Shown here: positions 84-63,642 of the stretch, piece after piece
How the letters are laid out: each line of letters starts with the position of its first letter
How positions within the stretch are numbered: position 1 is the first letter of the stretch
Source: Limnomonas spitsbergensis
Lineage: Eukaryota; Chlorophyta; Chlorophyceae; Chlamydomonadales
Assembly (NCBI GenBank): GCA_037349105.1
Contig: JAYJMM010000120.1
Coordinates: 4,592,001 to 4,656,000, forward strand
Length of the DNA: 64,000 nucleotides
Direction: 5' to 3'
The notes under the pieces: model-generated
What the model was told of the DNA's origin: nothing
Database searches by the model: none
What the model saw: only the letters and a program-made list of their open reading frames with translations
Position numbers and translations under genes: made by a program

Positions 84-3000
84 GTTGTGGAGCGGCTGAA
101 CAACTCGCCGCACCTGGAGAAGATCCACTACTTCATGAGCAAGGCTGATGCGGTGGAGAAGGAGCATGACCGGCAGAGGGTGCTCATCCAGATCACGCAG
201 GTGGGATCAGACGCATCATAATATGGATGATGGTATTAACAAACATCATATTATCATGTTTGTTGATGGTGGGGCCTGGCTCTGGCTGTTTTGACCCGGG
301 CCAGGGTCTGGGCCAGGCATGGCCCTGATATGCAAGACTGCGTAGTGGATTGATGTCCATTGTTAATTAGACCAAATCTCAACCAGCCTACGCCTAGTGG
401 CCCAAGCTACAGGAATTGCTGCACTAGCCTCACAGCATATAAGCCATAGGTTGTGATGTAGCTGAATTGTAGCTGGCGCACTAGCCCCATAGCCATGGGC
501 TGTGATGTAGCTGAATTGTAACAGATGCACTTGAAGTAACAGCGATGTGCAGCGTTCCCGTTGCTGGATTCTGATGTCTGTTGTTCCTTGCAGAACCTGG
601 CGACGCGTATCCGGAACTCCCACGCCTTCAACCTGCCCACGGTGAGCCTCTATAGCATCGGGATTGCATGCGTGGGAACAACTGTGTCTGCGGTCGTTTG
701 TCTGCTCGTTAAGGTCCTTTGCCGATTGGATTCCTTTATGGTTCTTTATCAGCTGCCCATCCCCCTCCGGCATAAACTTCTGTGATTGCCAGCGTTGTCT
801 GTTCATTGGATACTTCCATGCCTCTCACCTGTGACCCCCTCCCCCCCCTTCTGTTCACACAGTTGTACCTGCCCCCTCCCCACCCCTCTGTTCACACAGT
901 TCTGCCTGCCCCCCCCTCCCCCCCCGCTCTGTTCACACAGTTCCACCTGCCCCCTCCCCCCCCTTTCTGTTTACACAGTTCTACCTGCCCCGGGAGGACG
1001 GCTCTGATCCAGGCATCCCAAATGCCATCGAGGAGGTGTGCAAGGAAATGGACAAGGTAGGAGATGAGCAGCAAGGAGGGGATCCCTCGTTTTTCATAAG
1101 GAGATTCTTGACATGCCCGGTATAAATTGGTGCCCGGTATAAATTGGTGCCTGGCATCAATTGGTGCCCGGTATAAATTGGTGCCCGGTATTTTATTGTT
1201 GCCCGGCATAAATTGGTGCCCGGTATAAATTGTTGCCCGACTGCCCGCTCGCATCCGGCTGCTTCTGATAGACTCAATGGTGTCCCTTGGGAGTCGTAGT
1301 GGGTGCTTACTGCCTAGTTCTGACGCGTGCTGTGTTCATGCCTGTAGTCTATCCACATGACGGTGCAAAAAAACCTGCTCCATCTTCAGGATGATTAAAC
1401 CCTAAACCCTGTCTGCAGTCGATCAACATGACGGTGCAAAAGAACCTGCGCCACCTCAAAGACGACTGCGAGAAGGTGATTGTGAGCATTGGCGAGGCCA
1501 TCCGGACTGACAAGGAGAAGAAGGCTGTCAACAGGAGGAACCGCTTCAAGGTGATGGCGTGCATTGTAAAAAAGTCCATGGGGCTTGATTTGGTGCATGA
1601 GCTGTCTGTCCGCAGCCCTTGCATTTCGACACCATGCTAGTCCTGTCATGGGTATTCATTCCACTATTCCCAACATAGTACTGAATAACACAGTACTGAA
1701 TAACATAGAACTGAATAACATAGTACTGAATAACATAGAACTGAATAACATAGCACTGAAGAACATAGTACTGAATAACATAGAACTGAATAACATAGTA
1801 CTGAATAACATAGAACTGAATAACATAGCACTGAAGAACATAGTACTGAATAACATAGTACTGAAGGATGCTTTCAGGATGTCTGTTGCGTTGTCTGATC
1901 TAGTATCCTGCAGCGCATTGAAGTGCGCCATGGGGGAGGGGGATGCCGTGCGGCCACCACAGGGCCGATTGGTGCCAAACTATGACCGGCCTACCGCCGG
2001 TAGCTCTAGCAGCAGGGCTTGCTACCTCCCCCCCCCTCCGCTGTAGGCCGAGTAGCTGATGTGTAGCTAGGTGGAACCCCACCCTTAACTACACTGAATG
2101 AATAAGTAATGCTGGACCCTGTGTCAATGCAGGGCATCATGTTCTACATGTCGTCCTTCATGATGCTGACGCTCATGGGCCTGCTGCTGGCCGCTCGCGT
2201 CCTCCCGTCTCTGTAAGACATGCGTATATCCCTGAAACAGCTTGGCTGCAACAGCTATTTTTTTAGTGTTCCTGGATATTCGTGCTCTCGAAGGGAATGT
2301 CCTGCTTTCTATCCTGTTTATCTCTATGACATTACACCTCTGGGCCCCTCTATCCTGACGTTACACCTCTGGGCCCCTCTATCCTGACGTTACACCTCTG
2401 GGCCCCTCTATCCTGACGTTACACCTCTGGGCCCTGCTTACACCTCTGGGCACCTCTATCCTGACGTTACACCTCTGGGCCCTGCTTACACCTCTGGGCA
2501 CCTCTAACCTGTTTATGTATATGTGCCTTAGCTCACATGATATGTCCTGTTTTGAGCCATGATCAGTGCGACACCACTGGTTGCTTACTTGTTCCTTAGT
2601 TTGGAGCCATGACCGGTACAATACCGCCCCGCACCCTTGGAAACAACCAAGAGTTAATCCACATATTCTGGGCATTGATTTTCTGTCTGTGCCCATGTGT
2701 ACCCAGGTGCTCTGTTTCTGGGCATGCCATGTGCGATGCGTCTCATGCCAAATTTATCGTCAAGTTGCAGCCGGTCGTGGCTGAGCACTTCAACCTCGTG
2801 GGCGGGGTGCTCCTGGTGTCCTTCCTGTTCCTCGGCCTCCTCGCCAAGGTAAAGCATAATGAAGTGCTCACTGAATTCCCCAGCTCCTCTACGGGTAAGA
2901 TACTGACTACCCTGTTGCCTTAGGGCAGCCTGCCGGTTTGTTTTCATGTTTTGCCTAAAAATGCTGGCTCATGGACCTTACCAGTGAGTGCCTCTCAAGT

Positions 3001-3338
3001 TTTATTTTGCCATGATGTGCACAGCTGACGTGGAAGACCACGACAGTTTTCACGAAGCTGGACCTGAAGAAATTAGACGAGTACAAGCAGTACGTGCGGA
3101 AGATCGCGGACCAGGAGAAGGGTGAGGATCTCATGTCCAGACTGAACCTGGATGTTATGGTTAGCAAGGACTTTTTGGCAATGACAAGCGAGGTGACAGG
3201 CAGGTGAAAGGCAAAGCATTATGATCACATCCAGCTTTAGAAACTTCACCCTCTGCCTCACCTGCCCCTCACCATAATGTTTTGACAGGCCTGTACGAGG
3301 AGTACTTCAAGAGCCTGTCACACAGTGATGACAGGTAG
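84..3338 (+). CDS. Two-transmembrane, dynamin-like protein (5' end outside window)
   Basis: Eight phase-consistent exons were read: 84-200, 594-641, 979-1056, 1419-1550, 2133-2212, 2707-2848, 3025-3121 and 3289-3338 (TAG stop). All visible introns are GT-AG, and together the exons give 247 residues of the C-terminal part. Early residues contain FMSKAD followed by FNLPTFYLP. This resembles the G4 [N/T/S]KxD region of large dynamin-superfamily GTPases, but the P-loop would lie upstream of the window. A charged helical segment follows (EEVCKEMDKSI, then NLRHLKDDCEK). Next come two hydrophobic segments, GIMFYMSSFMMLTLMGLLLA and a second containing GGVLLVSFLFLGLLA, and a basic tail ending SHSDDR. 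The paired membrane helices after a helical stalk recall membrane-remodelling GTPases. That family call is inference and weak; the exon structure is much firmer. Confidence 0.72.
852..978 (+). repeat. Four tandem copies of an intron 3' splice site
   Basis: A CTGTTCACACAG|TT unit plus a C-rich spacer occurs with AG at 862, 899, 940 and 978. Only the last AG starts exon 3 of the upstream gene. Spacing is 37-41 bp. Each copy also carries a degraded start of exon 3 (TTCTACCTGCC-like). Confidence 0.85.
1114..1240. repeat. 17-bp minisatellite
   Basis: About seven to eight degenerate copies of GGTGCCCGGTATAAATT lie in the intron between exons 3 and 4 of the first gene. Confidence 0.8.
1347..1400 (+). 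pseudogene. Degenerate duplicate of the start of exon 4
   Basis: The stretch beginning TAG|TCTATCCACATGACGG resembles the true acceptor and exon 4 start (CAG|TCGATCAACATGACGG) over roughly 50 bp. It then runs into a TAA in the matching frame. It sits about 70 bp upstream of the functional exon. Confidence 0.7.
1672..1866. repeat. 15-bp minisatellite
   Basis: About 12 alternating variants of ACTGAATAACATAGT / ACTGAATAACATAGA lie in intron 4 of the first gene. The AT-rich 15-bp unit leaves frames open on both strands, so the apparent proteins there are artefacts. Confidence 0.85.
2343..2510. repeat. 29-bp tandem repeat with dispersed-element sequence
   Basis: Tandem TGACGTTACACCTCTGGGCC units followed by CCTCTATCC lie in intron 5 of the first gene. 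The same GACGTTACACCTCTGGGCCC core recurs as a dispersed element elsewhere in the window (for example at 8934). Confidence 0.8.
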
Positions 3339-3837
3339 CATGGCAGCTGACGATGGCACGAGATGAATTCCTCTGCTCAGAATCCGTAGGACCAGCATAC
3401 AGCGAGCATTAGGCAGGCTGCACCCATAACTTTGAAGTTGAAAGCCTGCCGGCTGCAATGAACGCATGCATGGAGGCAAATGCTTATCTGTGGGCACTGC
3501 CCTAAACTCGGTTTGTGCCCTCTGATCAGGGATTATCACAATTGGCACACAGTTGATTAGTCCGGGACTTTGAATATTTCTGAGTCTGTGGAGGGTCGAT
3601 ACCTTTTTTGGCCGTGTTAGCAGCCTGATTGTTGCTGCGACGCGGCCTTAGAATTGTGACATCTTGAAAGCATGACGCGTCTATTCATTAATGGGCCTGC
3701 CTACACAGGCCTGCCTCAAACGAGCCGCGGGTCTTCAAGACGCGGCACGCTGATGAATATAGACCTGCCAGTCTTTGCTCGTTCAGATATTTGCCTTTTG
3801 ACATAAAGACACCTGCACTCCATCAACAGCGACTGCA

Positions 3838-5386
3838 ATGGCGATGAAGACAATGCCGTACACAGAGCCTGAGTACAAGATGCCAGGGTGAGAACTTGTC
3901 GGCCCATCAGCGTGCCCGAGCTCCTAGCACCGATGAACCTAAGGAGCTGTGAGGCTGATCAGCTCCACCAAAATGTATCTCGGGCGGAGCACACCAGAAT
4001 GTGGTGGGCCGCGCGCTCTACAGAATAAAATGCCTTGACACAGTAATGGCGAAATGTATCCGCGTACACTGCTCTCTGTCCGCTCTCTGTGATCTACTAC
4101 TTCCTCAGCTGCCAGCTCGACTTACGAGCCGCGTCCCATTTGATGTCCCCTGGATCGATCGGGAGCACCAAGAAGAGAGGCCGAAGACCCATCTCTAAAA
4201 TCATTTTTTTTGCATTGCAATTTCAGGTACACCGGGCACATCCACGGCATGGGAGAGACCTTCAAGAAGACGCCCATCCCTTGCCAGATCGAGACCAGGG
4301 ACCCCCACCAGGACAGCTTTGTGCATACCCGCACCCAGCTCCAGTTCAAGTCTACCTACAGCACCATCCTCAAGGACCCATGCAATAATGCGGCTAATTT
4401 CAAGCGGAAGACCAACCCTGACAACATCTGGCCTCAGATGCAGACCAGCGCGATCCAGGACTCCTTCAAGCCCCCGGTCAGCAACATCAACCTTGGCGAC
4501 ACCAGGATTGACACATTCAAGACCTCTTACGGTTTCGACTTCAAGGCGCCCTTCTCAGGCCACGACAGGCTGCGCAGCCCCAACAGGAATGAAGACCTGG
4601 GCAGGACCACTCAATCTCTGGCAGCAATCTTCAGGAGCTCCTTCAACCGCATCGGAGAGTGAGTGCACCATTACACTTCCGAATGCATGCTACTGTCAGT
4701 GGCTGTCCTGAGACTTTTCGATGAGTGAACGCACATCTTGTGATGCGCCTGTTTGGCCCGCTGTCAGCCTGTTTATTTATTCTCCTGTCCTGCCCCTTTG
4801 CAGGAAGCGGTTGGAGAAGATGATCTCAACCATGCGGGAGCGCATGGAGACCAAGTGCGGCAACTCCAACGACAATGCGTTCCGGATCAGGAAGCTGTTC
4901 CTGGCTTGGGACGGGAAGAGCACCGGCATGATCCACTACGAGGACCTGCGGCAGATGTGCGAGTCCTTCGGCATGCAGCTGGATGACGACTCGCTGATGG
5001 CACTGTTCTACATTTACGACCCGGAGGGCACGGGCTTTATGGCCTACATGGACCTCGTGAAGCACTTGATGCACCCAGACACGTTCTGCTACTATGTCGG
5101 CAGCGTTGACAACAGCCAACAAGAAGCGGACAGAGCCTGGGTCAGGAAGCTGATGACAACAGTTGGCCGCAAGTTTGCACCCGTGGTAGATGAGCTGATG
5201 CCGGTGTTGAGCGCATTTGACGAGACCAGAGACGGCTTCCTGTCGCGGCACGATCTGCTGGCGGGCTGCGCGGCCCTGGGCGTCGTTGTGAGCGAAAAGG
5301 AGCTTGACAGCATGCTTCCTGTGATGAGGAGAGACGGGGCGGGCAACATTGACTATGCCCACCTCTGCAGCCTCTTCACGCCATGA
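3838..5386 (+). CDS. EF-hand protein with axonemal PGYTGH-type motif
   Basis: Three exons, 3838-3887, 4227-4658 and 4804-5386, join in phase to give 354 residues. The first junction rebuilds MPGYTGHIHGMGETFKK, a P-G-Y-T-G-H signature familiar from microtubule-inner and other axonemal proteins. The N-terminal half is basic and low in predicted order (for example TSYGFDFKAPFSGHDRL). The C-terminal half holds four EF-hand-like loops: DGKSTGMIHYED, DPEGTGFMAYMD, DETRDGFLSRHD and RRDGAGNIDYAH. The first loop lacks several acidic ligands and the fourth is degenerate, so calcium binding is uncertain. The start was chosen because its short first exon supplies the two bases that complete the glycine codon. 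A TGTAA motif near 5741 may be the poly(A) signal. A role in the flagellar axoneme is inferred, and no specific FAP name is claimed. Confidence 0.85.
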
Positions 5387-5949
5387 GCATGTTATGTGCT
5401 CCTATTGCCTGACTTTGAGTTTAGAAATTAGACATTCCGTCGAAGATAGGCTCACTTTATTACTGTTTTATGATTTGTTATTGATGCTGAACCCTTCACA
5501 ACTGACTGCGGCTGGTGCTTCCATTATGTTCATATTTATGGATATTCTGTGCCCAAAGCGTGAGTGATTTAACAAAAACTTTGACTTTTTATAATTTGAG
5601 GTTCAGCTCATTACCTACTTTGCACATATTGACGGTTGCTGCTCTGTCAGCATGTTTACGCGCAGTGTGCTCCTGTTGGTCTCTTCCACCATACAGAGTG
5701 TGACATCATTTGGCTTGGCTCCTTGCACATAAGCAACGAGTTGTAAAATGAATCAAGCGAAAGCCATTTGTGTTATCAGGGTCAAAACTTCAGGGTACAT
5801 CAGGAGGCAGGCACGCTTGCATGAATTCAGCTTGGGAGGCGGCCAGGCATTCTAGATTCTATACTCCACGACGATACTCACGAAGCTGGTCGATTGCCTT
5901 CAGCATGAAAGACTACACAAATAACATGCCAGGGAGAAGGCCGTGAATC
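5387..5949. other. Convergent intergenic region
   Basis: This region lies between the EF-hand gene (+) and the RING-H2 gene (-) and should hold both 3' UTRs. GTTGTAA at about 5740 fits the TGTAA poly(A) signal known from volvocine algae. I see no other coding signal. Confidence 0.6.
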
Positions 5950-7577
5950 TTATTGACTCTTGGTGCTGACTTCCTTATTGCAGCTGGGGCAGTTCTTGCT
6001 CTGAGACAGCCTGCATTGACAGGGAAGTCATGACACATGATTCATTTAGTTTAACCAGCCAGCAAATGCAGGCATGCTCAGATGATGCCCGCAAATTAGC
6101 AGGTACGGTAAGCAGCCCTTGGCCCAGGCTCTCACCATTCTGCAACACACTCGTGATGAAAAAAATGCTGACAAGACAGCTGTGTCACCCTGTCTGGGCC
6201 CTCGAAGTCACACTGACATATGCAGCACCTGCGGTACATCATACAATTATTTGAATGTGCCCCTCGAAATATTGAGTTGCATCTCAATCGCTGCAGGCAT
6301 CAGGCAGGTGCCACAATGCACGAGTGCAAATATGAAGGATGTAATTTTTCATACCTTTCCTGCGCTGTCTCTGTTGTGCTGGGCAGATTTAAAGTATGGA
6401 ATTCCACTGATGGCAGCTGCTCCCTCTCCTCAGCAGACAGGCCCTTCGACACTGTGCCGACCATGTCACCAAGAGCTTGGAGATCCTTCATCACATTGAA
6501 GGGTTGACAGGTTGAAGTTTCCTGATTTTCCATCGCCGATTGTTTTGGCATCCCTGGGTCCATTTTAATTAGTTGAACATACAGACATAATGTATGCTTT
6601 GCTGCACTCAAAATTGTATATGAGTCTCGACTTACCTCATATGGGAGAGACTCCAGGTCTGGGGCATCCTCTAATTGCTCATCTAGCTCATCGTGCCCTG
6701 CAAGATGCATGGTATGCAGGACAGCACACTTCAATCTTACATTTAGCACTTCTGAGGTTCTTAGTCGTTCACTGATGTGCATGTATACACGCAGCAGCTA
6801 ATAAATTGCCGAAGCAATGGCTTCCACAACGGCCCAGAGTTCCTCACCATAGGATGCTCCAGCATACATGTTTTCCTCCTCTTGCAATCGTCTTGCAAAA
6901 GCCTCGTCATCCTCCTCCTCCGGCCCGATATCTGCAGCTCTGTCAAATGGTGGGCAAACCTTGTCAACCCTTCAAGCGAGCATCCATTTTTCTTGTACAG
7001 TGTACACCGAGGATAGTCAGCAGGTGTGACCGGGTGGGAGGAGCATCAGAGAGCATGGAATAGGATGCCATCACACGACAAACGTGCATTGCAACGTGGT
7101 GTTCACCGGCCAGTCCTCTCAGCTGAATATTTTGTCTTGGATTCAAGTTGATGCTAAACACATACCAGGCACCAGTATGGCAGGCATGTAGGTCTATGAT
7201 GGCATCATTTGAGTCCACCTTGTTACCATGCTACAACAAAACTGTCATCTCCTGAAGGAACATGGTATGAATCCATTATGGCATGACAATCGTAGGCGAC
7301 GCATGCCCCACGCTTGCTTCTCTACTCGCTCTCCAGTGAGCGCACCCATTTGCCATGTTGTAGAAGACCATCTCCTGTTGCTGAAGCAGTCTTGCCAGTG
7401 CGAGATCATCATCCTAATGCATGCCGAGACGACTAAGCGTTGGTCACAGCCGAATGGGGAACATGAGCTGAAGGAGTCAAGAGCAAAGTCGATCGAGGCA
7501 CTGACCGCGATACTCTTCTGCTTGACAATGCTTAAAGCTCCCGGCCGTAATGGCGCATTTTGCACACTTCCGTCCAT
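5950..7577 (-). CDS. BIG BROTHER-like RING-H2 E3 ubiquitin ligase
   Basis: Seven exons on the minus strand: 7577-7506, 7413-7346, 6939-6848, 6697-6636, 6521-6355, 6228-6136 and 6010-5950. They join in phase to give 204 residues. The C-terminus has a complete C3H2C3 RING: CCICQCDF, then LSCQHFFHHECVAEW, then NCPSC. Before it lies ALGDMVGTVSKGLSAEE followed by LPSV, the hallmark spacer of plant BIG BROTHER-type ligases, which transfer ubiquitin from E2 to substrates. Two N-terminal segments, DLALARLLQQQE and DEAFARRLQEEE, resemble the MIU ubiquitin-binding helix pattern (acidic-phi-x-x-A-x-x-L-x-x-x-E). The RING exons are firm. Exon 1, with its GTCAGT donor, and the acceptor of exon 3 were chosen by phase and are less certain. 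Confidence 0.82.
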
Positions 7578-8120
7578 TTATTTATGTGTCTACGTGACTG
7601 ATGGTTTCTTCCTGGAGGGAATTGATGTGCTCGTCTGTTTTATTGTAGCTCAGACAAGGTTGTACCCTTGGTTCTATCTACATGTATCTGTCAAATTGTT
7701 TTTTCAAAAAGTGCAGTAGGTTTTTAGCGCGCCTCCTCAGCAGTCAGCACTGCACGCAGACGGTGGGTCGAAAGGTTCATACTGCACTGTTTTGGCAGGG
7801 CCTTTCACCTGTCGAAATTCGCCAGCAAGAGGACAGCAAGACACCGTGCGCGTGCAGTCATTTGTCCTGCACATGCGCTACCCATGTGGTACTCGGACGC
7901 ATCGATTATGCCTGCGAGTAAACCCTACTTAAACAACTGTTGTATGATACCAAATGGTGCATCTATGGCATGTGGGTGAGGTGGTAAACTGGTAATTAGC
8001 ACCTAGGATCCTGCCTTCAAATCTGGGCTTCCCAAGCATACGGTACATGCCCTGTACACACCGATGGATACCGCATCACTGTTTGACAAGTGCCATTAAC
8101 TTCCACCAGCTGTACCAGGC

Positions 8121-8480
8121 TGAGCAGGGGTGGGATGCACTTGCTCTTGTGGACTGTGCTGTGGGCATTGTTGAGGGTTAGTTTCTAGTGATTCTGAGGC
8201 GCCGGTGTCGTTTGCCTTTCAAGCCTTCCCTTTGGGTCCTTTTTTTGCCCCCTATTTTTAGTTTCTTCTCCTCCCTTCTGATTAGTGGGGCGCCCTCGCG
8301 GCCAAGCAGGGGTGGGATACGCTTGCTTTTGTGGACTTTTCTTTCTTTGGAGGCTTTGTTAAGGAGTAGTCTCTAGTGGAACTCAGGTGTCAGACTTCGT
8401 CTTCGCTGCCTTCCCGGCCTTTCCTTTTGTTCCTTTCCCCCCTCTTCCCTTTGGTTTCTTCTTTTCTCCCTTCGAACAGT
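8121..8480. repeat. Diverged direct duplication, ~182-bp period
   Basis: Two copies share AGCAGGGGTGGGAT near the start and TAGTSTCTAGTG plus a T/C-rich tail later. Their starts are near 8121 and 8303. Confidence 0.65.
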
Positions 8481-8483
8481 TGG

Positions 8484-8990
8484 GCGCCCACGCGGCCGAG
8501 CTTTGAGCGGGCCCAGAGGTGTAACGCTATTGACTTTTGACAAGGCCACATGGGGCTAGCAGCTAGGACTAACTGCCTGCTGCCTAGTTTTAACATGGGC
8601 TTCAATTGGAGCTTTCCATGACTCCTTCCGGGACAATTGCCGGTATACAATTTTGAACCTGTCAATCCGCTGTCAGAAGTCGCCTACACTACAATTTGTA
8701 GCTACAAAACGAGCGATTCCAGCCAGCAATGAAGTAGCATTACCATTGTTGAGGGCAACTTGGACACTGGATCTTCCAATGTCAAAAACGAGCTCAGAGG
8801 GATCTCTCTTCAGGAAGTTCCCTGAGCTTTTTCCCGCGAAACATTAAGCTTTAGAAACAAGCTTCAATTATCTCACATTCTAGCTCACACCGGTCCGACT
8901 TAGCAGCGGGAGTCAGAAATATGTCAATGAATGACGTTACACCTCTGGGCCCTGCTAAAAAAGGCTCAGCCGCGTGGGCGCCTAAGCAGA
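8484..8990. repeat. Inverted pair of dispersed GGGCGCC...GTAACG elements
   Basis: GGGCGCCCACGCGGCCGAG with GGGCCCAGAGGTGTAACG at the left is mirrored by CGTTACACCTCTGGGCCC with CAGCCGCGTGGGCGCC at the right. About 400 bp lies between them. This could be a small element with long terminal inverted repeats or two independent insertions. Confidence 0.6.
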
Positions 8991-9871
8991 GGGTTAAAGG
9001 TATGTGTCTCTTTCTACCGGTTTTTATTAAACGCCGAGGGAGGATGCCCCGACTAACATTTGATTAGTGGCCTTCCAAGGCGGTTTGACCTGTCTCGAGT
9101 GAACAACCTTCAAAGCTGGTAAATCATGGAGCTGTCAACCACTGTCAAGATTGTTTACATACTGAACGTAATATTCAAATCGTTAGCCCTGGTAGCTGTG
9201 GCTGGGGACATTTCCATTGTGAAGAACACCCACCAGAGTATTTCAAATTCATGATATGGATGATGTTCACGCACTCAGGCGAGTCCTGGCAATTGTCCTG
9301 GTGACGAAATACAATAAAACTGAGCAACCGATGAAAACCCTGTACAGCTCAAAACCAGCAAACACCCAAAAAAACCAACAATTATTTTACACAGCCAGAA
9401 CGAGCGCCGGTTATTAGAAGCATCACGTGACACCTAAAAATAATAATGCTCTGCCACATTTTGAACAACATCAGGCACCATCCATCCATTTCATAACGAC
9501 ATAAAACAAATTAAGGTCACTTAACAACCTTTTACGACCTGCCTGCCTACCTTCAAGAACGAAATCCATACGATAACCGTTTTCCAGGTCAGCAGCCAAC
9601 AGACCTGACCCGGATTTTGATATCACCCTTATGCTGTGGAATGTGGATGCTATCAGTAGAATACGAAGCCTCCTGATATGGCAGGAAACTTAACCTGGAG
9701 AGAAAACGTCAAATTCTAAGAGCATCAAATCTTGACAGAAATAGGTTGGGCAGAAGATTCCTGGCAGGGAAGGATAGAGCACCTTCAGGGCCTGCCTGCT
9801 ATTCCTGCTGCTGGGCCAAGGCACCAAAAATGAAATCACAATTCTCCTTGACAATTTAGGGAAGCAACTCC

Positions 9872-13285: not shown

Positions 13286-13490
13286 AATGACGTTACACCA
13301 CTGGGCCATGCTGCAAAGCTCGGCCGCGTCGGCGTCCAACAGTAAGGTTGGAAACTAAAGAGAGAGAGGAAAGAGACCCCCTCAAAAACAAAACAAAAAG
13401 TCCTAATCCCCAATCCAACTACCGGAAGCTGAAGACGTCTGGGCCATGCTCAAAAGACTCGGCCGCGTGGGCGTCCCACTGTCACAAAGG
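13286..13490. repeat. Two direct copies of the dispersed GC-rich element
   Basis: GACGTTACACCACTGGGCC with CTCGGCCGCGTCGGCG, then CTGGGCCATGCTCAAAAG with CTCGGCCGCGTGGGCG, lie about 150 bp apart. They are the same family as at 8484, 8934, 10945, 16221 and 51135. Confidence 0.65.
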
Positions 13491-13636
13491 GGGGGAAAGG
13501 AGAAAAGAAAATCAGGAAATTATGGCGCATACAAAAAGCAGGCACATGTCCCAAGCGAGACCGTCGAGAAAGGCCAAGACAAGTTGGAGAGCTAGAATCC
13601 CCATGCAAGTCTCTCCCGGTAAGCCATTCTAGCAAC

Positions 13637-16020: not shown

Positions 16021-16099
16021 GGTACTCACCTACCTACGGCCACGTGGTATAACGCTGGTGGCATCCATACCCAGAGGTTGAGGGATTAAATCCGCCACA

Positions 16100-18549: not shown

Positions 18550-45266
<26,717 letters not shown>

Positions 45267-46215: not shown

Positions 46216-47288
46216 CTATGGACATGCCTTTGACTCCGGCAATGCCAGCTGCCCCGTCACCAGATCCACGACTCGTGGGTACGTGCACTTCTCATCCAGC
46301 TGCGTCTGGGACCACAGCATGATCTTGATCAGCATGGGCAGGCGCGACTCCTTGTCCAGGCACTGGCTCTGCAGGATGGCTGCGTTGAGCTCGCTGGCGG
46401 TCTTCTGCCGCTGCGCAACGTCCATCAAATCGCCTACCGGGCTGCTTTTCGCGTCGTTGAAAGCCAGCAGAGCAACCGTGCGTTCTGTAGCAGCAGCAGG
46501 GGTGGGGGGACAGGGGGGCATGGAGAAATTGAAAGGGACGTCGAGTGGGAGCTTCGCCTACATCCTGTCAGTCCTCAGAACGCTCATATGCTTATGTTAG
46601 CAACTGTCATGCCTGTCACCTTCAAGTTTACTGGTCAGCTCCAGGGTCAAGCGACTTATAGATGTACTCCATGCATCCCATAAATGTATTCCTCAAGCAA
46701 CACGTGGATACAATTTCGTAGGGACTGGACACATCTTCAAAAGGAAAAATCACATGGAGCTCCCCTCTCACCCAGCTCTTCGAGGAACTTGGAGTTTTCC
46801 TCGCACTGCGGTGCAAGGTACTCCTCCGCAAACTGCAGCGCCTGCTCCGTATCCCCTTTCCTAATGAGCTCTATCAACCGCTGCTGTTGCAGGTGGAAGA
46901 ACAGATCTTCTTGGGTTTCCAGGATCTGTGCGCAAGAGGAGCCAGTGAGCAAACTGTGCAAGGTCGGATGCATCAGTGGCAGGCGGCATGCACGCTTGCA
47001 TGGGTACATGGAGAGCATGGGCACCTCTGGGTTCAAGTCGTTCACTTTCTCGATCGCGGCCTCGACATTGCCGCCCTGGACCGCCCGGCGGATCTCCATG
47101 CGCTCCTGTATTGTGCTGAGGTCCATGCTTGCAACTGTGCCACTCTCCTTCTCAAACATTTTCGCAGCATCGACGTAGCCTTCTGTGACTAGAAAATTCA
47201 TGATGAGCTTGTTCATATCCTCTTTTGGGACGGTGACGGATGCCAACTTTTGGTCCCACTGCTCCATTGAGAATTTAGTGTGCGCCAT
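46216..47288 (-). CDS. GID8: GID8 homologue (LisH-CTLH-CRA subunit of the GID/CTLH E3 ligase)
   Basis: Three exons, 47288-47025, 46925-46772 and 46484-46216, encode 228 residues, the same length as human GID8. A LisH-type segment (DMNKLIMNFLVTEGYVDAAK, about 24-43) is followed by the CTLH region (IQERMEIRRAVQGGNVEAAI). FHLQQQRLIELIRKGDTEQA and the CRA part ERTVALLAFNDAKSSPVGDL come next, ending DLVTGQLALPESKACP. GID8 is a scaffold subunit of the GID/CTLH ubiquitin ligase. Intron 1 uses a weak donor (GTGCCC), and the exon-exon joins restore the family sequence without gaps. The upstream neighbour on the plus strand starts only 209 bp away, suggesting a shared promoter. Confidence 0.95.
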
Positions 47289-47497
47289 ATCTCGAAACGG
47301 TTGGTTACAGCGTAATTATTTACAAAGAAGTAGATAGTACATACCCAGAAGGATGTTGCAGAGCAAAGAAAGAAAATTGAAAGCAAAGTGTGTACCGCAT
47401 ACGGAATTTGAGCTACTTTCAGCTACCAGTACTCCCCCTCAACGCTCACAGCATGACAGCAGGCTCATAGCACGACAAACTTTTCCATCAATAAATA
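47289..47497. promoter_or_regulatory. Putative bidirectional promoter, GID8 / 492-aa protein
   Basis: Two start codons face away from each other across 209 bp. The region is AT-richer than the flanks and holds ACTTTCAGCTACCAG and CCATCAATAAATAATGG. No TATA box was identified with confidence. The call rests on geometry. Confidence 0.5.
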
Positions 47498-53956: not shown

Positions 53957-54358
53957 CCTCGACTCCAGGTTCTTGGTGCTGAGCAGGATGGAGAGTGCTG
54001 TCTCATACAGATGTTAAACCACTGTATGGAGGCCTTTTAGCGTCTGGATTCTTATCTTAGACTTGGCTTGTGATCCTTGGCAGTGCTTATTTTAGTGCGC
54101 GCTGGCACAGTGCCGAATTTACGTTATAAATAAAATTACAGCACAGCATGATTTGGGGCAGTTAACTATTACCACCATGTATAGTTGCAACGAGGAAGAG
54201 GGGTCAGAGAAATTCTGCAACGGTCAGCTTGAGGACCTCATTTACAGCATGAGGATCTCATATACAAATTGTAAACGACACATTCATGCCTATCCCTATC
54301 CCCAAAAGATATCCCCACGAGGTTTCTTTCTTCGTCACATCAATCCAGTCCCATGTGC
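53957..54358. other. Convergent 3' region between PSF2 and DNAAF1
   Basis: The stop codons face each other across about 400 bp. ATTGTAAACG near 54270 gives a TGTAA candidate poly(A) signal for the plus-strand gene. No coding signal. Confidence 0.55.
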
Positions 54359-57300
54359 TCAATCCAGCTCGGTCAAGTCAACAGCCGGCGCTGCCGCAGA
54401 CACCGAGGCCGCCCCAACCCCTGACGCAGCCCTCAACGCCTTATTCGTATCTGATGCAGGACGCGCATCATCGTTACTACCCGCGACCACCGCTGCCGAA
54501 GCCTTGCCATTCCGAGCGATGACGGCTGCAGACTCCTCGACCTGCCCCTGTGCATGCGCCCCCTGGTCCCCTGCCCGGGCCTCCGCCTGTGCGTCGCCCT
54601 GATCACCAGCCTCTGCGTCGTTCAGCGCTGTCTGGTTGCTCCTCACAGTGTTGAAGTAGATGTGGCCATCAGACTCCGCATCCGCCTTCCAAGCACCAGC
54701 TTGGACGGGCTTGCCGTCCTTGGCCAGCTTCCGCCTGGCCTCTGCCAGCTCTGCGGTCGGGGTGTGCACACAAAGTGAGCGTCAGGCCATGTGTCCTCAA
54801 ACCAGTACAACGACTGAACACCAGCCAGTACGACGACTGAACACCAGCCAGTATGCTCTCAGACTCCCGTGCCTGAAGCCCACCTGGAAAGCCATACAGA
54901 CTGTGCTGTGCCGATTCCGGTCCTTACAGTGGCTGAATCAGTCACCGTCATTTCAAGGCAAATTCAGCTACCTTCACCAGTAATGGACCATAATGACGCA
55001 CTCAATTTCCGAACTACGGCGCATTGGCACAGCACTGCTGATACAGATCAGCAGGTCCCCCTGGCTGTCCCCCGTCTCCCAACTGCCTGCACACCTGCTG
55101 GCTCTTCCTCTCCATTGCGGTACGTGTATGCAGCCAGGCGGTTGCGCGCCGCCACAAGCTCGGGAGGGTCTTCCAGGGGGGTCCACTCGTCGTCACTGAG
55201 CTCATCCAGAGCCGGGTCTGTGTCTCCAGAGGCCAGGCCCAGGGCCTCACGACGCTGCAGGGGGAGCAGAGGGTTCAGGGTCAAGAAAGGCGGGCCCAGA
55301 TTCTCACGAAGCCACGAGGGGAAGCAGCAGGTGCAAGGCGCTCGCTGCAGGGACCAAGCCTCCAGGTCTGCAAGGCTAGGGCAGGCCAGCAACACGACGC
55401 CAGCACGAGCGCCGTAAGCAACTCACCAGAGAGGCCCCTTCTGGCTCAACTCTGCACTCTATAGGACATCATAACGAATCGCAAGCCCCCCCCAAAACAC
55501 AGAACATGACAAGTTCACACATCCCTAAAAAAGCTGCCCTGATCGAGCATCCACGCAGGCTCTTCTGGCTTACCCTGCATTCCACAGGACACTGTAATCA
55601 AATCGCCCACCCCCCATCGCGCTTTTTAGAATCATCGGAATTGCTAAGGTGCCCTGAGGGCACCACAGCAATTCCGATGATTCTGAAAGACGGACCTGAC
55701 ACTCAGCGTAGCTTATTATCCGTGGCGGATCCCGCCTCGCGCTTTAGAGAATCATCGGGATTGCTTCAAGAGGTCAATTTGGGTAACACACACACATGCA
55801 CGAGCATCCAGGCAGGCCCACCTTCCTAAAGCCCTCCTTCCTCAGCTCCAGCATGGCCTCAAAGTTGCGTCTGTCTCGTGTCTCCTTCTCCTTCTTGATC
55901 AGAATGCGCTCCTCCCGCTCCGCATCCAGGCCGCCAGTGGACCTGCAGGCAGCAGGCCAAAGTACAGAAGGATGTGTATGCTTTCGAAGGACATGGCCAT
56001 GCCGTGCACACGCATGACTCCTAGCTTGGCTGAAGTGCTGTTGATTGAGACGTCTAGGGACTGATTAAATGCGCACTGGTACTGCGGAAGGGTCCAGAGG
56101 GATGGCTGATCGTCAGTGAGGACGTCCTGGTTCGCAGCCATGGTTTGACTTGTCACCACTGGTGCCCTAAAGCTCGCACCAGGCATCAATCAGACGCCTC
56201 TCATCCTCGAACACAGGCCGCTCATCGAGGTATCCAAGGCTGGGGATGGCGGCGACAATCGTCTTCCGGTAGTTCTTCATGGTGGATACCACTGGGTTGC
56301 CCTTGAGGTATAGGCATTTGAGGTTCGGCAGCTTCTTGAACACGTCCAGCACTGCTGGGTCTGAGATGTCGTTGTTCTGAAGGTCCAGGGATGTCAGGGC
56401 CTGACACTCAGCCACGGCTGCGATGGACTCAACGTCGGACAGCTGGTTGCTGGTGCAGATCAGAGTCGTGAGCTGGGAGGGTCAGGGAGGAGGGACAGCA
56501 GGGAGGCACAAATAAGCACAGGACACCGAGCAGGAATGGCTGGTGTGGGGGTTGAGACTTTCGGTCGCCAATTTGAAGGCATCTGATTTGTAGTCAGAGA
56601 CGTACCGGTAGGTGTGTGAGGCAGGATTCCTGTGCATCAGAGAATGCTGATATTGGCAACATCAAAGCACTAGAGCTGACTCAATTTCGTGCTGGTTGAA
56701 TAAGAGAGGCCTGTACATCAACCTCTTCACAGGAGAGCCTGGGTGCTCACACTTTGTCAGTGCTGAAGCAGCACTTGTATGCATGCATGGGCGCATTGCC
56801 CTGCAACAGCACTCAGCGTCTCCATCACTATGCATGGCATGGTTGACCACTTTGTCACTGTAATGCCGATTCATTGTGAACACACTCCATCAGTGTTGAT
56901 ACAGCACATGTGAACATGAATGCATGAATGCATGCATGGGCGCTTTGCCATGCAACACTCCGTGTCCCCAACATTGTATCCATGGTAGATTACACAAGGC
57001 CTGGTCACTGAAAACAAAAATCTACGAGTCTGGCGAGTCACCTTTTTGCAGCCCGACAGCCCTTCGAGTCGCTTGATCAGATTATTGCTCAAATTCAGCG
57101 TGTCCAGCTCCGGCGCTCCCTCGAGATTGCTGATCTGCCATATGCAGTTCTGCTGCAAGTACCTGTTTGACGGATAATATAACGACGAGGCTTAGTAGTC
57201 ACGCAATGGTGTTTGACAGTCTTACATCCCGGGCTCTGGGGCGCGCACCCAAGCATTTCGAAATACGCCGATTATCATCGATTGCAGCACATATTTATAA

Positions 57301-57538
57301 TTTCCGCTTATCATACTCACAGACACTTCAATTCAGTCAGTGCTGGGAGTCCTTCGAGGCTGTCAATCGCATTGCCCTCAAGAAATAGAGCCTTGACAGC
57401 AGTGTACTCCTCTAAGTTCTGAATGCTAGAGAATCCCTTGAAATTGAGATACAGCTTGTCATTCAAGTTCGGTGTTTTATATCCGCCATGCTCCTTACAC
57501 AAGGACACCAACGTCTGCGTGCTCATGATGTGGGCCAT
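54359..57538 (-). CDS. DNAAF1: Dynein axonemal assembly factor 1 (ODA7/LRRC50)
   Basis: Six exons, 57538-57321, 57162-57042, 56472-56180, 55942-55822, 55254-55095 and 54750-54359, are all phase-matched and give 434 residues. The N-terminus [20 protein letters not shown] and [16 protein letters not shown] is the DNAAF1 signature. Leucine-rich repeats follow ([67 protein letters not shown]) and then the LRR cap [20 protein letters not shown]. After this lie charged coiled-coil ERE/KEKE helices, an acidic [14 protein letters not shown] segment and an Ala/Asp/Gln-rich tail. The protein acts in cytoplasmic preassembly of outer and inner dynein arms. A GTGAGG just after HIYFN could be an extra donor, so the low-complexity tail is the least certain part. 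Confidence 0.95.
55628..55684. repeat. Near-perfect 57-bp intronic hairpin
   Basis: The 18-bp arms AGAATCATCGGAATTGCT and AGCAATTCCGATGATTCT are exact reverse complements. Inside them, GGTGCCC-TGA-GGGCACC forms a second perfect stem. A third, diverged copy of the left arm lies near 55746. It is located in the intron between DNAAF1 exons 4 and 5. Confidence 0.92.
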
Positions 57539-57806
57539 TTGTATTGTTTAGTATTAAGAATTATGATCAAGGATCGAGGGGGGTCGAAAGGTCCAGAGCA
57601 CTCTTGCAACATCTGATGTACCGCAGAAAAGTAAGAACTACCCGGCAAAATTCACACAACAGCGCAGTTCAAATTGCTTAGCGGACACAAGTCGCTCACT
57701 CGCATGGCATGCAAACCTATACACGTCTTGAATGTAGGCAAGCAATGTGCATGCCGAAGTTTGCCACTCGTTACAATTCGTTTGCCACTGTGAGTGGCAT
57801 ACTAGC
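57539..57806. promoter_or_regulatory. Putative bidirectional promoter, DNAAF1 / helical-repeat gene
   Basis: Divergent start codons are separated by about 268 bp. I see no TATA box. An alternative upstream ATG for the plus-strand gene at 57747 would shorten the gap. Confidence 0.5.
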
Positions 57807-60800
57807 ATGACCGACTCGTGGCTTGGAGCAATCGGATCATCCAGCCAGGAGGAACAACAGAGTGCATGCAAGCAGGCTCTGGCGTACATCCAGCCACTAC
57901 TTGCCACGCAAGCCAATGCTGCCAGCAGCTTGCCTGCTGTCCGAAAGCTGGCACGGGAGTATGGAGAGGCCGTGACAACAGCTCTCAAGTCCCTGTCAGC
58001 CCTGCTGTCCACAGCCAGCAACGCGAACCCGGCAGGTGCTCCAGCAGAATCATGCTCCCATGCAACACTTGCAGATGTTGCATGCGCCGCCCTGGACGGC
58101 CTCGACTGCCTGCGCAAAGCTCTCAAGACCAAGGGCCTGGAGCTGGAAACGCAGCGCTACAGCTTCACGCGCAAATTCACAGCCCTCGGCCTCCATGGGC
58201 CCGCGCTGGCACAAGGGTGGAAGCTATTCCATCTCCTGGAGGCTGCTGCAATACAGCCCTCCGCTCATAGTGGGCAGGCTAATGATCTGCAATCTGCAAC
58301 AAGGACAGGCTTGCTAGCCTCTCTTAGCGAAGCGTTTGCTTGGCAGGCTGACGACCCACGCATGGAGATGCTGCCAAAGGAACCGGAGCTCATGCTGTGC
58401 AGCATCATGCCTGGATTGGAAGCCACGCTGTCCCAAGCATTCGAGTGAGTTTTGACTGCGGAGAAAATAGCGTAAACATATTTGCGCCGTGACCGTTAGT
58501 ACTTCAAACCCCTAGCTTCAACCCGTTAATTCAAAGCCCTGCTGTCAACCATTACCACAGCTGTCTCTCTTACATTCCTGACAGGCCTGGAGTGAGCGGG
58601 AGGCACAATGCCATCTACGTGTACAGCCTGAAGGTAACTACTTTAGGGACATCTTAAAGAGGGCTCAAAAAGCTGCTAGCATGCCAGTGCGTGTTTACAT
58701 GCACACCTGACGGCAGGCTGCTGGGCAGCCGCCACTAGGATAATGGGGATCTTTTTGGTCAGGCCGAACCTGGACCAGCCTACAGCCAGAGGCCCAAGCA
58801 GCTGTGGGCGTGCTGCACCAGGACCCTATGGCCGTAGGTCATGAGCCCATGATGTAGCTGAATTGTAGCTGAATCACCCCACCCAGCAAGAAACAGCTGC
58901 ATGCACACTCAACACATGTTCCTCGCTATACCCTCCCCTGCCATTCCGCTACCCCTCTCCGACCTAGCATCTACAGATGCAGATGCAGAGCTGTCACGCA
59001 GCAGCAACAGCGAGGCACCCACTTGCCATATACTGCAGTGTGTGGCGTCTCTGTCCCAAAAGCTGCAAGCGGGGGTGCAGACTGAGAGCAACGTGTCCTC
59101 GGCCTTGACTGCTTTGGTGACGTTGAGCATCAGAGCAGCTGTAGCCTCAGGCAACCAGGCCAAGCTTCCAAAGGTGCGCAGGGTACTGTTTATTCAGGCG
59201 GGCTTCAGCTACACTTCAGCTACACAACAGCCTTGGACCAAGGCTTCCCGTAGCTGCATGCCCTGCTGCTTGGGCTGCCGCCTGCCGGCCATGGGCTGGT
59301 CAAGGTCTGGTCCACATCATGGCCAAAACGGGGGTTAGGTGCTCACTTAACCAAACAATGCTGCAGAGGACCTGTACCATGCGGTTGGATGACATGGCGT
59401 TTGGTGTCATCTCTCTCTCTTACGTTAGCTGGCGTGATGGCCCTTTTGCAGGCCCTTTTCAAGGTGGCAGCCAGCCACAATGCTGAGGCTCAGTGTCGGA
59501 TCTTGGAGCATGTGGCTGCAATTGCCCTTACAGGTCAGCATGGGGGCATGCTACATCATTCATGGCTGCGTTTTATTACAGTTCTGCGTGGGGGCATGCC
59601 ATATTGTCTATGGCTATAATAGCTCTCATAGGTCAGCTTGAGGGCATGCCACATAATGCAACGGATGCATTAGCCCTCGCATGTCAGCATGAGGGCATGC
59701 CACGTACATCACGGCTGTGCTAGCATGCCCCCCCCTGAAGATGCCTCTTCATGAATCATAATTGGTCCCGATTGGAGTCCCGATTGGAGTCGTCAGTCGT
59801 GATGTTGCTGTCCTGCCCATGCCATTGCCGACCCAATCCGTTCAGGGGACGACAGTGTGGCGCACCAGGCCTTGACGTGTGTGGAAGCCTTCCTTCTCGC
59901 TGCACAAGACCGGGAGGACTTGCCCGGAAGGTTTATGGAAAGCCTAGTCCGGTGCGATGGGGGGCGAGGGAACGGGGCTCCCACTCCCCCCACGGGGTGC
60001 ATCCCTCGAAATTCCGGGGGATGCACCCCGTGGGGGAGAGTGGACTCCCCTTGGCCAGGGGCGTCCAGGGGCTCAAGGGAAGGGCCTCAAACCCGGCCTG
60101 CTGAAGTGTCCCTGAGCCGGCCTTTGCTGGCCAAGGGTGTTATGTGTTCCATGTTGCTGGCCAGGGGTATTTTAAGGGTTCAGGGTTCCTGGACAAGGGT
60201 TTTGAGGGTTAAGGGCTGCCGGTCATGGCTGTCCAGGGTTCAGGGTTTAGTATTACTGGCTAAGGGTGTTCAGGGTTTAGGGTTGCTGGCTAAAGGAATT
60301 CAGGGTTAAGGGTTTAGGGTTGCTACCAATGGTGCTGAAGGTTTAGGGTTTCTGGTCAAGGGTATTCCTGACATCCTGCCTCTCTCCCCCCCCCAATAGG
60401 GTCCTTGACGACCCCAGCAAAGCCCAGGATCCAACCTCCAACAGCCGAGCATGCCTCTCCCTGCACCTAGTCACTCTCGCAACCAGCTGCCAGCTGGTCA
60501 GCGAGCTCCCAGCTGCAGCCGGGACCTGGGTCAAGAGCGCCATCAGGCGCCTGGAGGACGCTGTGGGCGCCTCTGCCACCGCTTCCGCTGCCGCTGATGT
60601 GCAGCTTGTGTACCCCGCCTTGATGAGCTGGTGCCAGGTCATCGCAGAGGATGAGGCACACATGCAGCATTTGAATGAGGCGTGGGCGGGTGAGTGGCGT
60701 TCTTATCTTGGCTGGGAGGGCTGCCCTGAAGAGGACGGGGAAGAGTTTTTTGTTCCATTGACCTTAACACCGGTTGCCGGCGGCCAAGCAGGAGGGTGGG

Positions 60801-63642
60801 CCATGCGTAAGGCCTCAGGACGGAGGCTGGTTGGTAACTTAAAAGTCCCTGTACTACACCTGAACTTTTGCTGAGCCACAAGATGAAACCGCGGATGATC
60901 TGTGATGAACAAGTAACGCTGCAGGGCTGCCTTCAAGGAGCCATGGTTCAGGGTTTAAACCTGCTTAACCCTTCACCCCAAAACCTGCTTAACCCCAAAC
61001 CCTGCTTAACCTGCTTGACCCTTCACCCCAAACCCTATTACACTTCAACATGCGTAGCCTGCTTAACCATTCACCCCAAACCCTGTTTAACCTGCTTAAC
61101 CCTTCACCCCAAATTATGTGCACCATGCGGTGCGAAAACCTTGGTTGTGTTAGGGCACACTTCCAGGATCAGCATGTGCATCATATCACAACCTGTTCGT
61201 TTTCAGGCGATTGTTGTTCGCAACACACGCCACAGTGGCCACACTTTTTGCCTCATGCGGTTGAGCAGGTCTCATGACCAGCATGCCTTATTTTCCAACC
61301 TGCTCAATTGTTGGTGGCAACACACGGTCCACCTTTTACTTCCGCGGTTGTGCAGGTCTCTTGATCAACGGCATGTCAGCCTCGCTGGCGGCAGCTGTCC
61401 AGATTCTGAAGCACAATACCCAGGTGGGAAGCATGCCCAGAACCTGCCCTGATGTTCAGGGTTAGGGTTTAGGTCCGCGACCTACCCTGATGCTGAGGGG
61501 TAGGGGTCTAGGACCTTGAACTGTCCTGATATTAAGGGTTAAGGGTTTTGGTCCTTGACCTGTCCTGTTTTAGGGGGCTGGTTCAGTGATCTTGACCTGC
61601 CCTGGTATAGGGGGGATAGGGATTGGGGTTTAGGTCCTTGACCTGACCTGGTATTGGGGGCTGTTTAATGATCTTGACTTGCCCTGATGTTCAAGGTAGA
61701 GGTTTAGGGTCGCGGTCCTTGACCTGCCCTGGTGTTGAGGGGGTGGGGTATAGGACCTTCACCCGCCCTGATGTTCAGAGTTTAGAGATACAGTGAATGT
61801 CCTGACCTGCCCAGGTTTCGGGGGGGGGTAGAGTAAGCGTTAGGGTCCTTGACCTGCCCTGACTGGACCTTCGCCCTTGATACCATTTTAAACTTGAACA
61901 GCCCTCGAACGACCCACACCATGCAGCATCTGCCGGGTCTAAAGGGCGATGCTCCTAATTTTCTTTCCCTCCTGTTTTTATGGGTGGCTGCGCTTGGCTG
62001 GCAACAAACCGCTCCTTGTCCACACCTTGAACATCAATTGTCCACACCTTGTACACATTTTCATACCTCACTCCGTCACCTCTGGCAGGGCTTTGAGGTC
62101 CAGGAAGTGGCCCAAGCGGCGCTGTCAGTCGGTGTCACCGCCATCGGCATGTCATGCAGGCGAGCCGCTCCGCCCACGGCAATGCCGATGCTGGGAACAG
62201 GCAGCGAACGTCTTGGCCTCCCCTCTGGCAGCGCCCCTCAGGGCCTGCCCCATGGCATCGATCCACTTGGCCTCCCCTCTGGCAGCAGCCCACTGGACCT
62301 CCCTCGTGGCAGCGACGCGGTGATCCGCCAGCTGCTGTGCTGCATGTCGGCCCTGCTGGATGCGGCCAGCCTGGGAGGCCACGTGGATGCCGTCAGCTCT
62401 GAGGAGCTACATTGGGTTTCAGCGAGCGTCACAAACATGGGTGAGGAGCGCGGCTGGCTGGGTGGTGTGCAGCGTTACGTCACTTGTCAGTCAGTGGGGT
62501 GTGGCCACAACTCCCATGTGCCCTGTGGGTATTACAAATCCGAAGGGGGACTTGTAGTAGATCTGAAGGGGGACTTGTAGTAGATTTGTTATAGAAGTCG
62601 TATTCAATCTGAATGAGAGCTTGCAGTAGATCTGAAGAGGATCTTGCAGTAGATCTGTAGTAGAACTTCTCATCTTCTAGTAGAGTTTGCAGCAGATCTG
62701 AAGAATGACGGGTAGTTGATCTTAAGTAGAACCTCTTAAAGTCTGGAGTGGAACTTGCGGGCTGGATGCCTCCTCGGGGTATGTAAGAGATTATTTACCG
62801 CATCATGCTACCTTGATAGTGCCATCCGGCGAAACCTCTGCTCTCTCGTTCGGTATCGTATCATGCTACCTTGGTAGTACGGCCTGGCTTAACCTGGACC
62901 GTATCTTGCCACCTCGGGATCTCCTCACCTGCCTCTACATATCTGCCTGTGTATACTCATCACCAGTACCACTGTTGCTGAGTTAGTGGGCGGGCACCGG
63001 AGGTCCTGCCTCAGGGCCCAAGGGGGTTATAAGCACACTGGCTGACCCAAGATCCAGTGGGCGTTTGTCACTGTTCGATAGGCCATAGCAGGTGGGCAAG
63101 TTTAGACTTGCATCAGATCTCGCCTCAGGGCCCAAGGGTGTCTTGAGCGCACTGGCTAACCGCAAGTGACAGTCAGTGAGCATTTGGGGCTGCTGGCCAG
63201 GCCGTGGCAGGTGGGCAAGTTTCCTGTTCCGCATGTCCCCCAGCGGACTTCCTGCATATGATCATACAGAAAAGGAAGAAAATTGGAACAGAAATAAATA
63301 CCGGCGTCTCCCTGCTCCTCCCCTCATCTCTTCCCCGGGCCTGCCTGTGCCCCCTTGACCCCCCCCCCCTTGCTGTCAGGTCTTGAGCTGCTCATCACTG
63401 GTTTAACTCCTGTGTGGGACGGGCTGCGGGTCGCGTAGGCACAGCCCAGCATGAGTGTCCCCCCGGTGCCTCTCCTCTCCTACCCACACCTCTTCCCCGG
63501 GCCCCCCTGCGCCCCCACATCCTCCTCCCTCCGCTGTCAGGTCTCGAGCTGCTCACTGCCGGCCGCCATTCCTTGGCTGCGGACGTGCTGCGGCTGGCAG
63601 TGGCTGCAGCATTGCACAAGATGCGGCTCCTGGGAAGCGCAG
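57807..63642 (+). CDS. Large helical-repeat protein, tentatively separase-like (3' end outside window)
   Basis: Exons are 57807-58444, 58585-58633, about 58991-59173, 59452-59533, 59846-59930, 60400-60689, 61356-61423, 62089-62440 and 63541-63642. Phases match throughout except at the start of the third exon, whose acceptor is uncertain: 58991 keeps the frame, 58968 looks better but does not. The protein (over 550 residues so far) is almost entirely amphipathic helix, rich in Ala/Leu. The segment KGLELETQRYSFTRKFTALG-LHGPALAQG-WKLFHLL resembles the helical repeats of separase N-terminal regions. GLELLTAGRHSLAADVLRLA is TPR-like. No catalytic part is visible, since separase's protease domain is at the C-terminus. 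The family call is inference; that the exons form one gene is well supported. The start at 57807 was preferred over 57747 on composition. Confidence 0.65.
59517..59715. repeat. ~50-bp repeats of an exon end plus donor
   Basis: The true exon end ATTGCCCTTACAG|GTCAGC with GGGGGCATGC is followed by three diverged copies. These have the junction near 59581 (ACAG|TTCTGC), 59632 (ATAG|GTCAGC) and 59683 (GCAT|GTCAGC), each followed by RGGGCATGCC. Confidence 0.75.
59983..60041. repeat. GC-rich intronic hairpin
   Basis: The left arm CTCCCCCCACGGGG with TGCATCCC pairs with GGGATGCACCCCGTGGGGG, with a loop of about 13 nt and a one-base difference. It is in the intron after the exon that ends at 59930. 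Confidence 0.85.
60120..60350. repeat. Degenerate GGGTTTAGGGTTGCTGGC repeats
   Basis: Eight or so imperfect ~30-bp units combine CTGGCYAAGGGTRTT with CAGGGTTTAGGG. Telomere-like GGGTTTAGGG cores recur. Confidence 0.75.
60950..61110. repeat. Degenerate AACCCTTCACCCCAAACC repeats
   Basis: About five irregular copies of CCTGCTTAACCCTTCACCCC and AAACCCTG lie in the intron following exon 60400-60689. Confidence 0.75.
61440..61860. repeat. Degenerate ~50-bp repeats with CCTTGACCTGCCCTGATGTT
   Basis: About eight irregular units begin immediately 3' of the donor at 61424. The first copies carry GTTAGGGTTTAGG. Confidence 0.75.
62520..62720. repeat. ~24-27-bp AGATCTGAAGGGGGACTTGT repeats
   Basis: About seven irregular copies combine CTTGTAGTAGATCTGAAG with GGGGA, shortly downstream of the donor at 62441. 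Confidence 0.75.
62995..63230. repeat. ~118-bp tandem duplication
   Basis: GCCTCAGGGCCCAAGGG, GCACTGGCTRACC and GCAGGTGGGCAAGTTT occur in the same order twice, starting near 63007 and 63123. Confidence 0.8.
63310..63580. repeat. ~161-bp duplication of an intron end and exon start
   Basis: CTTCCCCGGGCC, a C-rich tract, GCTGTCAG|GTCTYGAGCTGCTCA occurs with the junction after 63379 and again after 63540. The second junction is the functional acceptor. Confidence 0.9.

Follow-up and report, generated by a model that had tools for sequence, protein, structure and literature searches.

Copies of splice junctions in tandem repeats are common in genes of the snow alga Limnomonas spitsbergensis

Splice junctions in the genome of Limnomonas spitsbergensis, a chlamydomonadalean snow alga, are often accompanied by tandem copies of themselves that lie in the adjoining intron and carry coding bases of the exon. 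The most probable explanation, to which we assign a probability of about 0.7, is frequent local duplication that is blind to gene structure and is tolerated because splicing normally uses the outermost copy. Specifically, i) tandem duplications, mostly of about 20-140 bp, would arise often and regardless of gene structure, presumably through slippage or repair, and some would grow into arrays; ii) a duplication wholly within an exon would be removed by selection, to which the exons would owe their clean state; iii) a duplication across a splice junction would be nearly free, because the original junction is still joined to the body of the exon; iv) splicing would stay with the outermost copy, that is, with the first donor and the last acceptor, and so with the shortest exon; and v) the extra junction copies would become intron, giving longer introns and many spare splice sites.

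The window, by which we mean the whole 64,000-nt stretch of DNA that was analysed, positions 4592001-4656000 of contig C120, contains three genes with junction copies: gene-1 and a separase-like gene on the plus strand, and a CDKL kinase gene on the minus strand. The model of the CDKL gene consists of a first modelled upstream exon (45170-45200), exon 2 (44074-44147), exons 3 and 4 (42844-43098 and 32088-32274, both with Pfam kinase matches), exon 5 (30392-30596), exon 6 (28818-28902), and exon 7 (20185-21120), whose real acceptor, CAG|CTCATG at 21120, also rests on homologue alignment. These seven exons, with GT/AG introns, form one open kinase reading frame, and the product aligns with homologues through the exon junctions. 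Volvox, Gonium, and Dunaliella proteins are among the best-scoring relatives listed, the highest named identity among the matches listed being to Dunaliella salina (57% over 65% of the query). The separase-like gene has a separase TPR domain (Pfam) in its exon 57738-58448, and between it and the CDKL gene lies a minus-strand exon (46737-47315) of a LisH/CTLH gene (Pfam CTLH 1.6e-15, LisH 5.8e-10). The exon peptides of gene-1 had no match in a PDB sequence search.

A preliminary description of this DNA claimed seven junction copies in at least three genes, with repeat units that hold both the junction and adjoining coding bases. We could read all seven directly in the sequence of the three genes, and in each case the copy includes coding bases, so that the real junction must have lain inside the duplicated segment. 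An eighth junction copy, absent from the earlier list, lies at the gene-1 exon 4 acceptor. Beginning with gene-1 (plus strand), the exon 3 acceptor lies in an array with a unit of about 38 bp (835-991, TRF) in which ACACAG|TT.. occurs four times, starting at 857, 894, 935, and 973; the AGs that end at 862, 899, and 940 are decoys, and the last, ending at 978, is the real site. At the exon 4 acceptor (1343-1461), a decoy from 1343 lies 71 bp upstream of the real site from 1414 and resembles it at 39 of 48 nt. The CDKL exon 2 donor (minus strand) belongs to an array of 59 bp x 9 (43560-44092, TRF) with nine sites TTCAGAGAG|GTGGGAG, one every 59 bp and the real one counted; the exon 3 donor (exon end 42844; donor and copy 42676-42883) has a single copy at +108, 108 bp downstream and alike at 84 of 100 nt; and the exon 6 donor (exon end 28818; donor and copy 28721-28829) has a single short copy at +72, 72 bp downstream and alike at 30 of 37 nt, which lies in a GT-rich stretch and was missed by a repeat finder with a complexity filter. 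In the separase-like gene (plus strand), the donor at 59533 is followed by three degraded copies (59510-59712) with junction positions 59581, 59631, and 59682 that match at 40, 37, and 30 of 54 nt, two of the three keeping GT; the acceptor of the exon that starts at 63541 has a single copy 161 bp upstream (63358-63560; 31 of 42 nt). The seventh of the copies claimed earlier, at the CDKL exon 7 acceptor, is described below. In CDKL exons 2 and 7 and gene-1 exon 3, as in four of the kinesin genes treated next (L044, L045, L057, and L059), the tandem units hold the real splice site of the adjoining exon.

Several much larger CDKL arrays, missing from the earlier list, touch no junction (all minus strand, TRF): an array of 51 bp x 23.6 in intron 5 (28907-30120), arrays in intron 4 whose units are G-rich on the plus strand (30633-31791), and 43- and 50-bp arrays which fill most of intron 3 (33157-42402). 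The 51-bp array ends 4 nt before the exon 6 acceptor, leaving the junction uncopied, and appears to supply the pyrimidine-rich stretch of that acceptor.

Beyond the window, junction copies prove to be widespread. A Pfam kinesin search of the genome (260,226,709 bases in 124 contigs) gave 139 exon matches in about 46 clusters by eye, from which 23 regions were picked by rank and exon number before the repeat analysis; the sample is thus not random and represents one gene family. Gene models built by homology (spliced profile alignment) yielded 120 introns in 23 genes, after a 2-base false exon had been removed from L060, which changed the spanned junctions from 33 of 242 to 31 of 240. A rebuilt second profile reproduced 105 of the 120 introns exactly, and these form the robust set of 210 junctions; the 15 unreproduced introns stand outside the robust count and were kept in the 240-junction, decoy, array, and donor-acceptor similarity analyses. 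The search was for ungapped direct repeats with a score threshold of 20 and an offset between 10 and 1000 bases, and a junction was called spanned where a repeat copy reached at least 6 nt to both sides. The median intron is 511 bp (126 kinesin and CDKL introns) and the median internal exon of the kinesin genes 132 bp.

The 23 real regions contain 3154 such repeats, and one base-shuffled version of each contains none. In the robust set, a direct copy that takes in coding bases lies within 1 kb of 27 of the 210 junctions (12 donors and 15 acceptors), and the spanned junctions fall in 25 of the 105 introns and 14 of the 23 genes; when each junction was instead compared with 2 kb of one unrelated gene, 0 of 210 matched. 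Thus junction copies are real and common, at least in the kinesin family. All 120 introns together have 31 spanned junctions, donors and acceptors being affected to a similar extent (14 of 120 donors and 17 of 120 acceptors), and the second-model count, the only one to include a 24th region added after the first analyses (L062), has 17 donors and 18 acceptors spanned in 129 introns.

That the copies are artefacts, either repeats collapsed or expanded in assembly or false junctions created by the gene models, strikes us as extremely improbable. The assembly was made from PacBio continuous long reads (PMC11228838), the copy number of the 130-unit CDKL array is uncertain, and 15 of 120 introns were not reproduced by the second profile; but copies of 50-100 bp are well within single reads (L50 read length 32.946 kb; PMC11228838), often differ from each other, and adjoin introns of which 105 of 120 were reproduced.

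The preliminary description took the duplications to be centred on splice junctions; at the level of single bases they are not: 12.9% of junctions are spanned, compared with a mean of 15.0% of positions per intron interior (26.9% of pooled intron-interior positions), and a gene bootstrap puts the difference, junction minus mean interior, at -6.1 to +2.3 points. Spanning stays level across the junction itself and declines over roughly the first 60 nt of the exon, reaching 1.7% in exon interiors; the 19,315 nt of conserved motor-domain exons contain no near-tandem array that is confined to an exon. Measured against their unit, the depths to which arrays extend into exons are consistent with a uniform distribution (18 arrays, KS p = 0.24). 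When whole arrays of the kinesin sample are counted instead, the answer depends on the settings, with junction spanning at between 0.7 and 2.3 times the expected frequency. Of the 53-54 arrays in the main setting, 18 include a junction, and uniform placement under full tolerance would yield 9.3 to 19.1, a figure that hinges on the assumed unit length and ancestral intron length. A modest excess of junction-spanning arrays, up to about twofold, may exist.

Such an excess would be expected if duplication were drawn to splice junctions, through transcription-linked breaks or sequence features of the splice sites, so that the arrays were truly centred there. We regard this as unlikely. When the smallest unit is taken as the duplicated segment, 18 of 53 arrays span a junction where 9.3 would be expected (p = 0.0015), and the excess persists with a 10-nt overhang (17 of 53 against 8.0, p = 0.0006) or a score of at least 30 (16 of 39 against 7.1, p = 0.0006); moreover, a survey of green-algal introns found them rich in tandem repeats, with more repeats near intron-exon junctions in the two algae surveyed, Chlamydomonas and Volvox (PMC3887541). 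That survey reported repeat density, whereas the units described here hold the junction itself and coding bases; and where it found more repeats near junctions, our base-level profile is flat, with rates at the junction equal to or lower than those in the interior. Nor does the array excess survive when the largest unit is used (15.6 to 19.1 expected), and simple two-copy cases are not significant (7 of 25 against 4.8, p = 0.18; 4 of 17 against 2.4, p = 0.20). Stricter tandem settings gave 8-9 of 43-45 arrays against 5.3 to 12.4 expected, and 8 of 38-40 against 3.8 to 10.1. Finally, selection on one partner should slow the decay of a copy that lies in an exon, and this would favour detection at junctions and produce an array excess there under duplication that is blind to gene structure.

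The spare sites are tolerated, which the preliminary description had named as one of two possibilities: 25 of the 31 duplicated junctions, a few of which (e.g. those of L060 intron 2) belong to the 15 unreproduced introns, still have one or more copies whose site dinucleotide is intact (13 of the 14 donors and 12 of the 17 acceptors). By a simple site score of our own, the real site exceeds the median decoy at 14 of the 31 junctions, ties with it at 14, and falls below it at 3. The retained fractions of decoys sum to 23.7 over the 31 junctions, compared with a rough expectation of 17.9 from flank identity; selection for or against decoys is shown neither by dinucleotide retention nor by column variation in the CDKL array. 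In region L059, on the minus strand of the locus, the intron 6 donor is a GC donor, CAG|GCAAGT, in a near-identical array with an 89-bp unit, and 8 further copies have the same GC site.

Decoys that are intact, and at 14 junctions equal in median score to the real site, might be in use, as regulated alternative donors and acceptors or as a brake on splicing in genes such as CDKL. There is a partial precedent in human ABCA7, where intron 18 contains a VNTR of 25-bp units that start with the donor GT, in about 12 to 427 copies; the first donor gives canonical splicing, and retention of one unit has also been observed (PMC5954066). The arrays described here resemble this VNTR in being intronic, in having a unit that holds a real splice site, and in their large copy number, but ABCA7 is a single gene affected at a donor only, by a unit that begins with the GT, whereas here donors and acceptors are affected in many genes and the unit includes coding bases. 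We nonetheless judge use of the decoys to be quite unlikely, in part because the nearest copies show no preference for frame: their offsets leave remainders of 0, 1, and 2 in 11, 14, and 9 of 34 cases (31 kinesin and 3 CDKL junctions), as by chance. We find it simplest to suppose that the inner copies are passed over and drift along with the array around them.

The CDKL exon 7 acceptor also bears on this. Its array (21115-28668, minus strand; TRF) has 130.4 copies of a 58-bp unit with 97% matches, the exact copy number being uncertain in an assembly from continuous long reads. The consensus unit contains a CTGAC stretch, which we take to be branch-like, pyrimidines, and CAG|GTCATG, and 129 of the 130 units, including the one with the real acceptor, retain an intact AG. 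The intron contains 126 TGTCCAG copies ahead of the real acceptor; splicing to 125 of these would lead to a premature stop before exon 7 and splicing to the remaining one to a frameshift, whereas the outermost acceptor alone gives in-frame entry into the exon, which argues against used decoys even though the median of the six decoys within 400 bp outscores the real site (2.12 against 1.28, by our own score). The decoy junction has no special conservation either, since in the 130 homogeneous units 8 of 16 columns near it are invariant, compared with 30 of 42 elsewhere; an apparently unusual conservation of these columns was an artefact of an exact-pattern search and vanished in an unconditioned column count. 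Most columns of the array are nearly invariant, and column 17 is two-state (72 T, 58 C), which suggests higher-order expansion of the array.

Two models of acceptor choice are current, scanning from the branch point to the first AG and exon definition. The exon 7 acceptor is the last in its array and weaker by our score, so that, if it is used, first-AG scanning from the branch point would fail to account for the choice, and pairing with the nearest downstream donor, as in exon definition, would explain it. A genome search with the 58-bp unit of this array, in which the best candidates were scored and very common words skipped, returned strong matches at its own locus only, together with two matches of 68-69% on C90. 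Introners are likewise repeated sequences with splice sites, but they insert their own copies in many genes (PMC9860276), whereas the 58-bp unit matched strongly at one locus only among the candidates scored.

A further proposal was that this genome may be generating as well as expanding introns by duplication; evidence for expansion was found, and evidence for generation was not. New introns might arise by tandem duplication of AGGT-containing exon segments (the Rogers model), and there are single genes for which a gain of introns through tandem duplication has been documented (PMC4974935, PMC2891723). The CDKL exon 7 consensus unit does contain CAG|GT, and the cases of potato RdRp, ATP2A1, and fission yeast (PMC4974935) are like ours in that a tandem duplication carries splice signals, the duplicated segment in potato RdRp being a copy of an existing intron-exon structure. 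Those duplications produced a new intron; here the resemblance between the donor and acceptor regions of an intron does not exceed that of permuted pairs (mean 5.13 against 5.07), with 2 of the 126 introns, CDKL included, above the permuted 99th percentile, and there are matched introns that lack the copies. The sampled arrays, moreover, sit within or at one end of longer introns. We therefore consider it very improbable that these introns were born in this way.

Five pairs of paralogues were compared, and in these, four introns carry junction copies that their counterparts at the same position lack: L045 intron 4, which is 1126 bp long with 804 bp of repeats and copies at both ends, is matched by a 541-bp intron 4 in L058 with none; conversely, L058 intron 1 has junction copies and L045 intron 1 does not; and L054 introns 2 and 5 have copies that are missing from their partners, L049 introns 4 and 6. 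No matched pair in the five paralogue pairs shares junction copies, and the cases of L059 intron 6 and L060 have no matched intron in the comparison. Thus, in four cases, the copies are younger than the introns in which they lie. The comparison of L045 intron 4 with its paralogue argues that duplication has made that intron longer, but repeats are not the sole cause of intron growth, because some paralogous introns are of unequal length and contain few repeats or none (L041 intron 4 has 558 bp and its partner in L042 has 1373 bp, with no repeats; L047 intron 2 has 245 bp and its partner in L053 has 1215 bp, with at most 91 bp of repeats).

The phenomenon is of a kind already known, ABCA7 being the one-gene precedent, and what seems new is its frequency in a single genome and its occurrence on both the donor and the acceptor side. 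Splice-junction copies at genome scale in algae are not reported among the open-licence literature matches listed, and the portions of the L. spitsbergensis genome paper that were consulted make no mention of junction copies (PMC11228838). In core-Reinhardtinia species the mechanism behind long introns was left open (PMC8226300); junction duplication suggests one contributor to intron length in volvocine algae.

Most studies of how the spliceosome chooses among identical sites have used artificial constructs or single genes. This genome offers many natural cases of such a choice, in which an exon has between 1 and about 130 near-identical copies at its donor or its acceptor end, and because full-length transcripts of L. 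spitsbergensis have been sequenced (PMC11228838), the question of proximity is directly testable. We wish to raise one bolder possibility, which we think doubtful but worth stating: that roughly 1 in 8 splice sites can have an apparently functional duplicate because the spliceosome invariably chooses whichever pair of sites makes the exon shortest, even if it has to pass over more than 100 acceptors that are as good or better. If so, duplication of splice sites would be free of cost and a notable driver of intron growth, and the spare copies would be ready-made sites for new exons.

The introns are also rich in telomere-like 7-mers. In regions L039-L061, CCCTAAA/TTTAGGG occurs 65 times in 74,850 bp of intron, compared with 10.8 +/- 3.0 expected under a first-order model, and once in exons, where 0.4 would be expected. 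Even when repeats are left aside, the 25 commonest intron 7-mers include several rotations of CCCTAAA. We speculate that these intronic 7-mers could be scars of break repair; in the window they are found, for example, at 1397-1410 and 60239-60314.
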